Below the pieces are notes generated by a model. It was not told where the DNA came from. It saw nothing but the letters and a program-made list of their open reading frames with translations, and made no database searches. From a virus, in IMG/VR virus record IMGVR_UViG_3300037247_001803, positions 1 through 42,966 of that record: DNA of 42,966 nt; one strand, written 5' to 3'. This document shows positions 7,223 to 42,966 of the stretch, in pieces (positions within the stretch are counted from its first letter, which is position 1; each line of letters begins with the position of its first letter). The position numbers and the translations under genes were made by a program.

Positions 7223-8734
7223 CTATTCTATTTCAAGATTTATGCCTGATTGTTTGAGTTCAAGAGATATACCTGGTGCCTTTAAAGTCAACGTTATTAT
7301 CACCTTTCCTTCGAATAACGAGAAGACAACATTTTCAATTGTTTGACCTTGTATCAATTCATTTATCTCAAGAATATTATTCTGTGTCAAGCCAAGACTT
7401 TCAAGTGATTGATTTTGTATAATATTTGCGACCTGTAAAAGGATGCCAGTATCAAGTGTGATTTGCTCTAAAGCTTGGGTTTGATCGATCCCGGCAATAT
7501 TAAGAATATTTTGCTGTATAAGATTTAACGAGTCAATATTTTGGCTTTGAACTATTTCCGCAATCTGAAGTATTGTCCCGACGCCTAAAACTATATTGTC
7601 AAGTGCCTGAGATTGATCAATCCCGTTTATTGATATCGTTGATTGTTGAATTAACTCAACATTTTCTATAGTTTGAGATTGAGAATTGCCACCTATCTGT
7701 AGAACGATTCCCACCTGCAAACTAATATTATCAATGGCTTGAGCTTGATCCATGCTATCAACATCAAGTAAATGTTGTTGAATAAGGTCGATATTATCAA
7801 GCGCCTGGTCCTGGTCAACCGCATTAATTACGAGAACATTTGCCTGTATTAGATTTAGATTCTCTAAAGTTTGATTTTGCGAACTCTCCTGAATTGATAA
7901 AATAAATTGCTGTATCATGTCTAAATTTTCAAGTGCTTGTGACTGGTCCATTCCGTTTATCACAAGAATGTTTTGCTGAACGATACCAATATTGTCAATT
8001 GATTGAGCCTGGTTGACTGGATTTATAACTAACACAGTTCCAGCACCTACCGAATATGTTCCTGATCGTATTTCATCAGCCTCTGAATCAGTAATAATAT
8101 CATCAAAAATTACTATTTCATCCACGAGGCCGTTCATAACAAAACCGATCTCAAGATCTACAGCAGTAACAGAAAGACTATTTGTTGTTGCTCCATTATA
8201 CGACGCAGATGACGCAGCTACATCATCCCACAATCTTAAAGTCCAATTTTGCGAAGAATCTTCGTAGGTTAAAACTGCATGATACCATTGCTGTACTGTC
8301 AAATTTGAAACCAGTTCTACAATTTCTGTGTTATCTCCGTTATTATAGCCGGCGAAAAAATTAAGCTCATTATTTCCGCTTTCGTATCGAAATATAAATG
8401 ACCGCCCACCGCTTTCGAACTTATATTTTTGGATAAAGTTGTGATCAGAATCATTTTCTAAATAAAACCATAACGACATGGAAATATTTTTATTAGTATC
8501 ACCACTTTTAAATGGGAACCCAGCATCTAAATCCGCATCAGCAATTAAGAAATACTCATTATTTACTTGTACAAATTCACCACTCGCAGCGCCCTCCTGA
8601 AAATCGGTGGTATTGGCAGTAACTGTATTGATATTTGTTAACGTATTGCTTCCAATAGAATCGGTTGTTAGTGCCCCTGATTCTAATCGCCAAAGTACTT
8701 TGCAATTAGGATCACCTGTGAAGTCATTAGCCAT
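7223..8734 (-). CDS. LamG-like domain protein with eleven 22-residue repeats
   Basis: A 503-residue protein. Residues 1 to about 230 look like a concanavalin/LamG jelly-roll: N-I-S-M-S-L-W-F-Y-L near 84, W-Y-H-A-V-L-T-Y-E-D near 150, and G-L-V-D-E-I-V-I-F-D near 205, a sugar- or surface-binding fold. Residues about 234-478 are eleven tandem units of 22 residues with consensus L-x-I-x-x-x-x-Q-x-Q-x-[IL]-[ED]-[NS]-[IL]-x-L-I-Q-x-x-[IVL], which should form a regular rod or solenoid. The likely role is a head-attached adhesin or fibre, since it lies between portal and capsid genes rather than with the tail fibres. Receptor and function unknown. Confidence 0.65.
   Translation of the reverse strand: MANDFTGDPNCKVLWRLESGALTTDSIGSNTLTNINTVTANTTDFQEGAASGEFVQVNNEYFLIADADLDAGFPFKSGDTNKNISMSLWFYLENDSDHNFIQKYKFESGGRSFIFRYESGNNELNFFAGYNNGDNTEIVELVSNLTVQQWYHAVLTYEDSSQNWTLRLWDDVAASSASYNGATTNSLSVTAVDLEIGFVMNGLVDEIVIFDDIITDSEADEIRSGTYSVGAGTVLVINPVNQAQSIDNIGIVQQNILVINGMDQSQALENLDMIQQFILSIQESSQNQTLENLNLIQANVLVINAVDQDQALDNIDLIQQHLLDVDSMDQAQAIDNISLQVGIVLQIGGNSQSQTIENVELIQQSTISINGIDQSQALDNIVLGVGTILQIAEIVQSQNIDSLNLIQQNILNIAGIDQTQALEQITLDTGILLQVANIIQNQSLESLGLTQNNILEINELIQGQTIENVVFSLFEGKVIITLTLKAPGISLELKQSGINLEIE
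7300..8035 (-). repeat. Tandem 66-bp coding repeats (22-residue units)
   Basis: About eleven in-frame units, diverged at DNA level but with strict 22-residue spacing. Units alternate roughly between an N-G-I-D-Q-S-Q-A-L-D-N type and an x-x-x-x-Q-x-Q-T-[IL]-E-N type, suggesting growth by duplication of a two-unit block. Boundaries are approximate. Confidence 0.8.
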
Positions 8735-9030
8735 TACACATCAGCCTCTTTAAAGTATTTTATTGTTTCGATAACACCATCGCCAAGGTCTTTTTCTGCG
8801 ATGACAATAAAACTTCTTGTCACTGATTTATCTGGATTTAGTCGACTACACACATCTGTTTTTACGGTATATCCTGCTTCTATTGACAAGGGTGAAGAAA
8901 GTCGCGCTGATTCACAGTCTGGGTATTTCAAATCCGATGAAGAACTTACAATCTGAATATACCTATTATTTTTTTTAAAAGCATTTTCCTGAGCTAAAAT
9001 CATATTTAAAATTGTATCTTTGATTGCCAT
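8734..9030 (-). CDS. Hypothetical protein
   Basis: A 98-residue protein with an N-terminal helix (MAIKDTILNMILAQENAFKK) and a strand-rich C-terminal part. It contains two Cys residues in the middle region but no metal-site spacing. It precedes the LamG-repeat gene with a one-base TAATG overlap, so the two are probably made together. No family recognised. Confidence 0.55.
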   Translation of the reverse strand: MAIKDTILNMILAQENAFKKNNRYIQIVSSSSDLKYPDCESARLSSPLSIEAGYTVKTDVCSRLNPDKSVTRSFIVIAEKDLGDGVIETIKYFKEADV

Positions 9031-9067
9031 TTAACCCCCGTAGTCTCCATAACTACTGACTCTAAAT

Positions 9068-9454
9068 TTACGACCAATTAGCTTTAAATTTACTAAATAA
9101 ACTTATAATAATTTTCCAAAAACCTTGAAGCAGGTTGGTTTTTGTGGGAGGACCGTCCGTTCTATACCTTACAAAAACCTCATTTGAATAGTCAGATTCC
9201 AAAGAAGGAATCTCATTATCGTAGACAGTAATAACAAAATAATACGACTTAGTATCATCTAAGCCAGTTACCGTAGATTCAACTACATTTCCTGCATCAA
9301 TAGGTTCGCCATAAACCCCAGATTCATTTCCATAATAGATTTTATACCCAGCAAGATCAGGTTCCGTATTTGCATCCCACTGAAGAGTCACATCAGCGGT
9401 AAACCCATTCCCAGCAAACATTAATAAAATTAAAGCCAAAAATAATCTTTTCAT
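9068..9454 (-). CDS. Secreted fibronectin type III domain protein
   Basis: A 128-residue protein. The frame is open further upstream, but the ATG at 9454 is preceded by GAGGAG and followed by a classic signal peptide (MKRLFLALILLMFAGNGFTA, positively charged start, hydrophobic core, A-type cleavage site). The mature part is one fibronectin type III domain: V-T-L-Q-W-D-A-N-T-E-P-D-L-A-G-Y-K-I-Y-Y-G, then T-V-T-G-L and S-Y-Y-F-V-I-T-V-Y-D. A Sec signal on a protein encoded inside the head module is odd, because virion proteins are not normally exported; a host-surface or superinfection-exclusion role is possible. The C-terminal 25 residues are hydrophobic/basic. Confidence 0.7.
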   Translation of the reverse strand: MKRLFLALILLMFAGNGFTADVTLQWDANTEPDLAGYKIYYGNESGVYGEPIDAGNVVESTVTGLDDTKSYYFVITVYDNEIPSLESDYSNEVFVRYRTDGPPTKTNLLQGFWKIIISLFSKFKANWS

Positions 9455-9458
9455 AATC

Positions 9459-9518
9459 TCACTCCTCTTCATTTTGTCCCTGTAACTCAGGGATGACCGG
9501 TATGGCGGTGCAACGTCA
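9459..9518 (-). other. In-frame coding extension of the MuF-like gene beyond UGA
   Basis: After the UGA at 9516-9518 the same frame continues R-C-T-A-I-P-V-I-P-E-L-Q-G-Q-N-E-E-E and ends at TGA 9459-9461, four bases before the next ATG, with that gene's GAGGAG ribosome site inside the last codons. R-C-T-x-I-P-V-x-P is the normal end of MuF-like proteins. The UGA stands where the family has the first Cys of N-C-R-C. It is therefore either selenocysteine or a nonsense change of a Cys codon. Confidence 0.7.
9477..9493 (-). promoter_or_regulatory. Hairpin, candidate bacterial SECIS element
   Basis: On the transcript the sequence reads TCCCTG-AGTTA-CAGGGA, a perfect 6-bp stem with a 5-base loop whose second base is G. 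The loop begins 29 bases after the in-frame UGA of the MuF-like gene, inside the 16-37 base window known for bacterial SECIS elements. It has no U-tract and is not a terminator. The conserved bulged U of the E. coli element is not evident, so the SECIS assignment is tentative. Confidence 0.35.
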
Positions 9519-10262
9519 ATTATAGGGTTCACCCGGATGACCGTCAGGAGGAGGGGCGATCCACAAAAAAGTTTTCCCGTTCCTGATAAAATGATCCATG
9601 TGACCCGGATTTCCATCCGGATATAATCCACCCGGAGTACCCACGACTTTTTCATCTTCTGAAGTTTGCCAAATATATGATCTGATTCCGAGATCGGTTT
9701 GCCTTGCCTTATTAAGCTGCCCGACTATTTTCCCGGTTTGATCCCTGGCAATGAATTTTGCTCTATTATTTGCGACTTTAAAACGTTTTTCAAGGGATTG
9801 AACCATAGCTTGCTGATCAAAACCTTTTTCACGGAAAATCTTTTCAAACTGTTCAACGATCTGCAAATTGAGTTTTTGAGGAATGCTTTTTATCAGTGCC
9901 ACATTATCCATGACTGCCTGATTCATTATGTGACGGATATTTAAATCAGACATGAATGGATTAACATCCACGCCAAGAGCTGCCTGAAAGGATTTAATTA
10001 GATTGACTTTGTGAACTCGGCGAAGATTATCGAGAGCTACTTGTACAGTTTCAACACCAAATGATTCACCGGAAGTCATGAAAGCGAACTCTTCAGTTAC
10101 TGCGCGGGTATATGCTGCTTTTATTCGAGGAACTGATTCAAGTTTGGCTTTTGTTCTGGCAAGTAGTGGGTCAAGAATGTCTTTTTTAATGGCTCTTGCA
10201 TACGCTTTTTCATCCTTACGTCTTGAGCCTACACCCCTGGGATTACGCAATCTTTTAACCAT
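9516..10262 (-). CDS. Phage head morphogenesis protein (Mu gpF-like), candidate selenoprotein
   Basis: The frame gives 248 residues to the first UGA. The C-terminal half carries the Mu gpF-like signature: A-R-D-Q-T-G-K-I-V-G-Q-L-N-K-A-R-Q-T-D-L-G-I near residue 175, Y-I-W-Q-T-S-x-D-E-K-V near 197, H-x-x-x-N-G-K-T-F-L-W-x-x-P-P near 225 and H-P-G-E-P-Y-N at the end. In the family the next residues are C-R-C; here UGA replaces the first Cys and the frame goes on through R-C-T-A-I-P-V. Read through, the protein is 267 residues (to 9459). MuF proteins are minor head components next to the portal, made with it (overlap of 34 bases). See the findings for the selenocysteine case. Confidence 0.85.
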   Translation of the reverse strand: MVKRLRNPRGVGSRRKDEKAYARAIKKDILDPLLARTKAKLESVPRIKAAYTRAVTEEFAFMTSGESFGVETVQVALDNLRRVHKVNLIKSFQAALGVDVNPFMSDLNIRHIMNQAVMDNVALIKSIPQKLNLQIVEQFEKIFREKGFDQQAMVQSLEKRFKVANNRAKFIARDQTGKIVGQLNKARQTDLGIRSYIWQTSEDEKVVGTPGGLYPDGNPGHMDHFIRNGKTFLWIAPPPDGHPGEPYN

Positions 10263-11683
10263 TTGAGAAATCCCCCTGTTTCATATATCTTAGAATCTGT
10301 TTGTTTCTGAACGAGAGTGTTTGAAAGACTTCTCGTGAATTCGTCAATTCCCTCAATTGGTTCTTCAAGATCGTCAAAATCACCGAGTATTTCATCACCA
10401 TCCATAATACCCCTGGCCTCATCTTCATCAATCAGTCCGGAATTAACAAGAGGCACGACAATTTGTGATTTCTTGAGAGCATTTTCGATCTTATCTTTTT
10501 CGCTGATATCGAGAATAGAAACGAATTTATAGCAAATCTTTTCTGGCAATCCGAGATGTTTTTCGATGACTTGGTCAATTTTGTCCAGTGGTTCGGGTAA
10601 TTGATTTTCCTGATCGGACGCAACTTTTAAAGCATAATTTCTTTGCTCACCCTCGCCAGTCGACTGCATCCCTACGATTGATTTTGACCAAAATCTCGTT
10701 TCTGGAATGTCGGCAGCTGCGGATAATCTCACAGCCATTCTATCAATAATTTCATGAAGTCCGGAAAAGTTCACCTCTGTACGGCTGAAATCGTCTTCTT
10801 TGTCCATGAAATTTGTTCGATAGATAGACAATAAAGCGGTTGTAGCTGCCATCCTATCTTGTAATGACAACTCGCCACCAGTGCCTTCAAGTGCCTCTTC
10901 AAATCCATCAATCTTCATATTCTTGATCGATGATTCGCTGACTAGATGAGCGATACCTTTTGAAACATTCGAGTCCTGAAATATTTCTGTGAGGACAGGA
11001 ATAATTGAAGCAACTCCCCAATCCGGATCATATGAAATCCATCCGTTATCTGAAGTCGATACCGTTCCATCAAATCTGATAACCCTGGAATGATGTACAA
11101 CGATATTACCGGCATTTTTTAAGTTGATGCTATATGAAGTTGGTTTTCCGTAATTGATAGAATAGGGATTATTTTCTTTTGAAACAATAGTTGCATCAAA
11201 CCTGTCAACAGTGAGAATGTTTGCAAGATCACCGGGTTGCATCGTGCTTAAGTTAAGCGGATTTTCCGGCTTGGTTTCCTTGGTCAGAATTATAAATAAA
11301 CCAGTTCCATAAAGCCTACCTGACTTCATAGCCCTTGAAAGCCTTGATCTTATTTTAAATCTATTTTCTACATCTTCTACAAGCTTGACATTCTCTGTGT
11401 CCATGTCGCAAAATTCGCGCCATTTCACAAACATGTCATCAACAGGGATATCCACAAATTTGGCAGCAGCCCACGACTCAACATAGATTGTCTCGTTGAA
11501 ATTTCTTGATACTAAACGGGTGGGGGCAAAGAAAGAATTGCTATTTTTATCAAGACTGGTTCCGGCTCCGGACATTGGATTTATAAAACCGCCAAATCCA
11601 AAATTATTAAAATAATTTGTCGAAACAGAACTATCTTTTTTTTTATGCTTTGACCGGTTTTTGTTTTTGGATTTTTTTTTCAC
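10229..11683 (-). CDS. Portal protein (DUF1073)
   Basis: A 484-residue protein with a GTG start 7 bases after AGGA. A very basic Lys/Ser/Asn-rich leader (first 18 residues) precedes the DUF1073 portal body: Y-V-E-S-W-A-A-A-K-F-V-D-I-P-V-D-D-M near residue 68, S-R-A-M-K-S-G-R-L-Y-G near 117, R-F-D-G-T near 198, and the F-W-S-K-S-I-V-G-M-Q-S-T-G-E-G-E segment near 337 that is highly typical of these portals. It forms the dodecameric DNA-entry ring and docks terminase. It is first in the late leftward operon. The gene's position some 1.9 kb from terL, separated by a rightward cluster, is unusual. Confidence 0.9.
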   Translation of the reverse strand: MKKKSKNKNRSKHKKKDSSVSTNYFNNFGFGGFINPMSGAGTSLDKNSNSFFAPTRLVSRNFNETIYVESWAAAKFVDIPVDDMFVKWREFCDMDTENVKLVEDVENRFKIRSRLSRAMKSGRLYGTGLFIILTKETKPENPLNLSTMQPGDLANILTVDRFDATIVSKENNPYSINYGKPTSYSINLKNAGNIVVHHSRVIRFDGTVSTSDNGWISYDPDWGVASIIPVLTEIFQDSNVSKGIAHLVSESSIKNMKIDGFEEALEGTGGELSLQDRMAATTALLSIYRTNFMDKEDDFSRTEVNFSGLHEIIDRMAVRLSAAADIPETRFWSKSIVGMQSTGEGEQRNYALKVASDQENQLPEPLDKIDQVIEKHLGLPEKICYKFVSILDISEKDKIENALKKSQIVVPLVNSGLIDEDEARGIMDGDEILGDFDDLEEPIEGIDEFTRSLSNTLVQKQTDSKIYETGGFLKWLKDCVIPGV

Positions 11684-42682: not shown

Positions 42683-42966
42683 TTTGACCTTCTAATCTTG
42701 TTGCGTAAACTTCAAGGTGTCCGTAGGTGCTCATGTTATAAACAACCCTGACAGCATATCGAATTCCACTGATAGCCGGAATTATAATATCAGAATCGGT
42801 TTGTTTGGTCCCAATTCTCAAAGGTGATATTGCATTATAATCAGATGTTTCAAACAGAATACATTTTGCATCAAGAAGCCGTTCGCCTTCCGGAAGTTCA
42901 CTTCGACTTTTTCCATCAAGAGGCTGAATACTTCCAAACTCATTAGGGAAAGTATTATCTGAACCA
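42675..42966 (-). CDS. Connector/neck-region protein, 3' part (same gene as 1-246)
   Basis: This frame enters from the right edge and ends at TGA 42675-42677, 8 bases inside the terminator gene. The portion 42840-42966 duplicates 1-127. Beyond that the unique part adds Y-N-A-I-S-P-L-R-I-G-T-K-Q-T-D-S-D to the 5' part at 1-246, then a strand-rich segment G-I-R-Y-A-V-R-V-V-Y-N-M-S-T-Y-G. Whole protein 136 residues, family not recognised. Confidence 0.8.
   Translation of the reverse strand, partial: GSDNTFPNEFGSIQPLDGKSRSELPEGERLLDAKCILFETSDYNAISPLRIGTKQTDSDIIIPAISGIRYAVRVVYNMSTYGHLEVYATRLEGQNG
42840..42966. repeat. Terminal direct repeat, right copy
   Basis: Identical to 1-127. Removing one copy leaves a 42,839-bp circle with an intact gene over the joint. 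Confidence 0.95.

Follow-up and report, generated by a model that had tools for sequence, protein, structure and literature searches.

A candidate selenocysteine codon in the MuF-type head protein gene of a tailed phage

We analysed a phage genome of 42,966 nucleotides (IMG/VR record IMGVR_UViG_3300037247_001803, in its entirety hereafter called the window), in which a gene for a MuF-type head protein is interrupted by a single in-frame TGA. Judged from sequence comparison, the TGA at 9518–9516 is very probably a codon for selenocysteine (Sec), and the gene a member of a phage selenoprotein family that relies on SelA, SelB, SelC and SelD of the host. The gene appears to work like that of a bacterial selenoprotein and shows the same sequence signs: the TGA stands at a Cys column, the sequence downstream of it is conserved as coding sequence, and TGA is otherwise an ordinary stop. 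An earlier note on this DNA had proposed Sec insertion by the host machinery, and the exchange of TGA with Cys, the conserved frame of the tail and a SECIS-like hairpin support that proposal. Two of the points developed below were absent from the earlier note: the exchangeability of both Cys positions of the motif, and the hairpin.

Table 1 Features of the MuF locus in the window
Feature	Position	Strand	Remark
MuF-type head (minor capsid/head morphogenesis) gene	9459..10262	minus	one in-frame TGA; 267 residues when read through
In-frame TGA, proposed selenocysteine codon U249	9516..9518	minus	column of the first invariant CxC Cys
TGC, Cys251, second position of CxC	9510..9512	minus	TGA in L002, L004 and L014
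Post-TGA coding tail RCTAIPVIPELQGQNEEE	9462..9515	minus	frame conserved; predicted strand 251-256 and helix 258-265
SECIS-like hairpin UCCCUG-AGUUA-CAGGGA	9477..9493	minus	loop 9483-9487 begins 28 nt after the TGA
True stop of the read-through frame, TGA	9459..9461	minus	
Portal protein gene	10229..11683	minus	directly upstream of MuF, overlaps the MuF start
Putative exported fn3-like protein gene	9068..9454	minus	next gene after MuF; not part of the mechanism

Results

On the minus strand, the ATG at 10262 opens 248 codons that end in ...H-P-G-E-P-Y-N, and both the start and the context of this open reading frame are normal. Beyond the TGA the frame continues R-C-T-A-I-P-V-I-P-E-L-Q-G-Q-N-E-E-E to a second TGA (9461–9459), which a four-base gap, GATT, separates from the ATG of the next gene at 9454. 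The in-frame UGA and the gain of 19 residues upon read-through, both described in the earlier note, are the same at base level in our analysis. The encoded protein matches PF04233 (37 bits against a cut-off of 29.6), TIGR01641 (53.5 bits against 39.65) and phrog_324 (1.5e-51). Its AlphaFold2 model has a mean pLDDT of 95.9 and finds viral minor capsid proteins as fold matches; neither sequence nor fold search returned a solved structure for the protein. By analogy with Mu gpF and SPP1 gp7 (PMC5512222), the MuF protein would be present in the virion.

The window contains the genome of a tailed phage; contractile-tail genes are present, the encoded products including terminase, portal, protease, major head, sheath-like and baseplate proteins, and its head-gene neighbourhood (terminase, portal, MuF, protease, major head protein) is syntenic with that of relatives. 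Its ends carry a direct terminal repeat of 127 bases (1–127 and 42840–42966), bridged by L130, so the genome, of ~42.84 kb, is probably complete and either circularly permuted or circular in the assembly. Of the 31 open reading frames longer than 150 aa, 12 end in TGA; in agreement with the earlier note, the codon is therefore not globally reassigned, and genome-wide reassignment is ruled out. Between MuF and protease, at 7223–9454, lies a cassette with putative signal-peptide/fn3-like and LamG-like proteins. The gene that follows MuF varies among relatives; in L003, L005 and L014 its product is a small protein bearing an ESSNI motif close to the start. The site just past the TGA tail therefore looks like a swap point.

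Alignment and protein searches of IMG/VR yielded about ten close relatives. That MuF proteins end in N-C-R-C followed by a tail, as the earlier note stated, is borne out by a 41-row alignment in which both columns of the CxC motif are conserved. The first column, that of the window's UGA, holds Cys, or TGA read as Cys, in 41 of 41 rows (the 40 other proteins all count as Cys, TGA-encoded in two), and the same is true of the second column in all 40 rows that reach it. The window shares the motif provided that its TGA is read as Sec or Cys. Nearly every aligned homologue is devoid of Cys besides the CxC pair, alongside which His224 (41/41) and His242 (40/41) are conserved.

Among the close relatives, the window and L001 have TGA-R-Cys (U-R-C), L002 and L004 have TGA-R-TGA (U-R-U), and L014 has Cys-R-TGA (C-R-U), its TGA lying two codons later behind an intact Cys. 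L003, L005, L006 and L090, the last from a metagenome-assembled genome (MAG), have Cys-R-Cys. The MuF proteins of L002, L004 and L014, which come from three different metagenomes, are 72–79% identical to that of the window, their genes have TGA at the CxC columns and nowhere else, which exceeds what chance would give, and the DNA of the phages that exchange TGA and Cys is ~64–78% identical in aligned stretches. URC, URU and CRU all occur among these phages: TGA and Cys replace each other at these two columns and no others, each of the three combinations that include a TGA is represented, and at the level of sequence both Cys positions are exchangeable. Close relatives do not end at the UGA without the extension; they have Cys or TGA there and then the same tail. 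About 60 further MuF loci have Cys, and nearly all of the deeper family has Cys at both positions; the MuF of L016 stops at the first Cys. TGA forms are known from only four lineages. Degenerate DNA scans of IMG/VR for further TGA-type MuF genes returned only the known four contigs and spurious matches, or nothing at all, and an additional IMG/VR alignment search gave no new member. A tree of nine MuF proteins did not settle gain versus loss of Sec or the order of changes.

In four other loci (L036, L052, L068 and L093), the MuF frame enters an intein-like sequence after ...HPGxxxN, starting with C-L-x-G-(D/E). This apparent intein sits exactly at the first CxC Cys, the residue proposed as Sec in the window phage.

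The coding character of the tail was assessed among TGA-ending open reading frames of the window and its relatives. The downstream frame is convincingly conserved for MuF only, with 75–93% identity over 12–18 residues; other matches in the scan were judged to come from antisense frames or from overlap with the following gene, and this comparison of TGA-ending frames with relatives revealed no other selenoprotein gene in the window phage or its relatives. Across the four TGA members, third codon positions account for 9 of the 13 variable sites after the TGA (p = 0.009). AlphaFold2 predicts the strand and helix of the tail with high confidence, the very end excepted. The codons of the last three Glu of the tail (GAAGAGGAG, 9462–9470) resemble the ribosome-binding site for the gene that follows; a second constraint may therefore act on the sequence of the tail.

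A 17-nt hairpin with a 6-bp stem and the loop AGUUA or AGUUG lies at the same place in all four TGA members. The model of the bacterial SECIS element asks for a loop of 3–9 nt, a stem of 4–16 bp, a spacing of 16–37 nt, a G as the first or second base of the loop, the next base frequently being G or U, and an energy of –7.5 kcal/mol or lower (PMC13188914). In loop, stem, G and spacing the hairpins of the window, L002, L004 and L014 all agree with this model; in the window the second base of the loop is G and the third is U. Measured to the start of the loop, the distance is 28 nt from the first TGA position and 22 nt from the second, so one hairpin could serve both. The hairpin is identical in the window and L014 (Table 1), that of L004 (UUCCUG-AGUUA-CAGGAA) differs by one compensatory change from C-G to U-A, and that of L002 (UUCCUG-AGUUG-CAGGGG) pairs via G-U. 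The bare stem-loop energies are –8.1 kcal/mol for the window and L014, –5.7 kcal/mol for L004 and –4.6 kcal/mol for L002, against the –7.5 kcal/mol or lower of the model, and the minimum-energy fold of a longer L002 stretch is without the hairpin.

Random synonymous recoding produced an equally good hairpin in 1.5% of draws for the window, 0.3% for L014, 2.9% for L004 and 7.8% for L002, percentages that are not independent tests because the lineages are related. A hairpin of –5 kcal/mol or better accompanies ~3% of all TGA triplets in the window phage and its relatives. Conservation of the P-E-L-Q peptide partly fixes the core CCTGAGTTACAG, which is found in the Cys relative L090 too. Among Cys relatives, the stem is 4 bp in L003 and L090, the hairpin is absent in L005, and L006 has a different, unrelated bSECIS-like hairpin that is presumably due to chance. 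The 4-bp core kept by L090, a Cys-R-Cys form, is possibly a relic of the Sec form.

ARAGORN identified no tRNA gene in the window, and searches of the window, L002 and L004 turned up no tRNA-Sec. Rfam gave no match at the gathering threshold, RF01852 likewise none, and a search of four related phage records, all distinct from the window, failed to detect SelB. With no tRNA-Sec in three phages and no SelB in four records, the pathway must come from the host, and phage-borne Sec machinery is ruled out for the records searched. The Cys-form relative L090 lies in a MAG named Candidatus Sabulitectum (Fermentibacterota), and SelB scores above the cut-off in 35 of 42 genomes of that phylum, this MAG included. 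The tetranucleotide profile of the phage contig in the MAG correlates only at 0.53 with those of the bin contigs; because its composition fits the bin so poorly, the link to Fermentibacterota through L090 is weak, a hint only. When the first 20 kb of the window were searched against the DNA of Fermentibacterota, no match other than the phage contig of the MAG was convincing. Relatedness of portal, terminase and sheath proteins across phage and plasmid records, as a route to the host, reached only ~25–35% identity. The 38,154-bp contig C196 of G001 (L150–L151), binned in the Candidatus Sabulitectum MAG, is syntenic with the window phage.

Discussion

In the mechanism that we propose, SelB of a Sec-decoding bacterial host, bound to the hairpin at 9493–9477, would deliver Sec-tRNA(Sec) to the UGA, and the ribosome would complete a MuF protein of 267 residues with Sec replacing the first Cys of the C-terminal C-x-C motif. 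In related phages Sec would stand at the second position of the motif, or at both. Two products, of 248 and 267 residues, would be expected in a ratio set by the selenium supply. Without Sec insertion the strand and helix of the tail would be missing; a working head protein would therefore depend on selenium, as perhaps would phage yield. Sec is usually a mark of redox chemistry. The CxC/UxU pair may be a redox-active thiol/selenol pair, or a metal site together with His224 and His242, since two His and two Cys would suit a site of the H-H-C-C type; a thiol/selenol switch of the pair could act in assembly or DNA delivery. Sec insertion itself, the identity of the host and the role of the pair are what we infer from the sequences.

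One rival to Sec insertion is that an ordinary amino acid is inserted at the UGA, through a selC*-type Cys tRNA with a UCA anticodon or through near-cognate suppression, which would place Cys or a mixed residue at position 249. Any kind of read-through explains a conserved downstream frame, and a tRNA that reads UGA and is charged with Cys, as is known from other bacteria, would fit the fact that TGA is exchanged for Cys alone. However, the many genes that stop at TGA would be spoiled by a tRNA that reads UGA in general, whereas here a single gene is affected; nor does such decoding sit well with a SECIS-like hairpin at the right spacing or with a phage that has no tRNA gene, and we consider it improbable.

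Ordinary termination, the alternative named in the earlier note, would mean that a Cys-to-stop change has cut 19 residues off MuF in this lineage, with a tail that is either in decay or not needed. In its favour, TGA by default signals a stop, and the frame of 248 residues has a normal start and context. Yet a stop mutation fails to account for three TGA combinations at the same two columns in MuF proteins 72–79% identical to the window's, one of them (L014) with its TGA two codons on and an intact Cys in front of it. Changes after the TGA are mostly synonymous, the tail forms a predicted strand and helix within the fold, the CxC motif is otherwise invariant, and the hairpin is left unexplained, all of which makes termination very unlikely. 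An error of assembly or sequencing at 9518–9516 could be suspected in a metagenome contig, but the same phage, assembled a second time (L001/L130), has 100% identical DNA over 17 kb and TGA recurs at the same motif in L002, L004 and L014, from three other metagenomes, which excludes an error in practice. Insertion of Sec thus stands as by far the most probable explanation of the TGA.

In its UGA at a Cys column with Cys-containing homologues, and in its in-gene hairpin just 3' of the UGA with a loop G and a spacing of 16–37 nt, the MuF gene resembles bacterial selenoprotein genes (PMC13188914). It departs from those listed there in being a phage head gene, for which the infected host must supply the machinery. 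The same 2026 inventory comprises 119 prokaryotic selenoprotein families and subfamilies, FdhF being an example of the kind, and has no phage, virus, capsid, head or MuF entry and no U-x-U motif. No phage selenoprotein was found in the literature searched; as subscription journals and preprints lay outside that search, priority is not proven. The protein is otherwise like the minor head proteins Mu gpF and SPP1 gp7: it scores above curated cut-offs, its gene adjoins that of the portal, it has the C-terminal H-P-x-x-x-x-N-C-R-C and tail, and its fold matches viral minor capsid proteins. Unlike in those proteins, TGA is the codon at one or both terminal Cys positions in the clade of the window.

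Viral use of Sec has a precedent in the glutathione peroxidases of the poxviruses molluscum contagiosum virus and fowlpox virus, in which UGA is read as Sec with the host machinery (PMC8310308). Those are captured eukaryotic enzymes with a eukaryotic SECIS, whereas MuF is a structural phage protein. Basilisk-like Bacillus phages are said to carry a predicted tRNA-Sec gene, and the passages in question describe no selenoprotein (PMC6145125); the window presents the converse, a candidate selenoprotein and no tRNA.

Taken as a whole, the comparison points to a clade of tailed phages that probably build virions with a Sec-containing head protein, in some members as U-R-U, and whose assembly or DNA delivery would then need selenium and the SelB of the host. 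Within such a clade the Sec/Cys configuration would follow the selenium status of the host or the redox habitat. Because gene callers truncate TGA-containing proteins, more of them may hide in virome data. If our interpretation is correct, a structural gene of a bacteriophage encodes a selenoprotein, the selenoprotein families of prokaryotes gain a new member, and phages that infect Sec-decoding hosts could be recognized by a sequence marker. Infection would require the selenium supply and SelB of the host. The presence of Sec would also raise the question of the function of the invariant CxC motif in MuF proteins, for which Sec in place of Cys indicates redox or metal chemistry and not a passive structural role.
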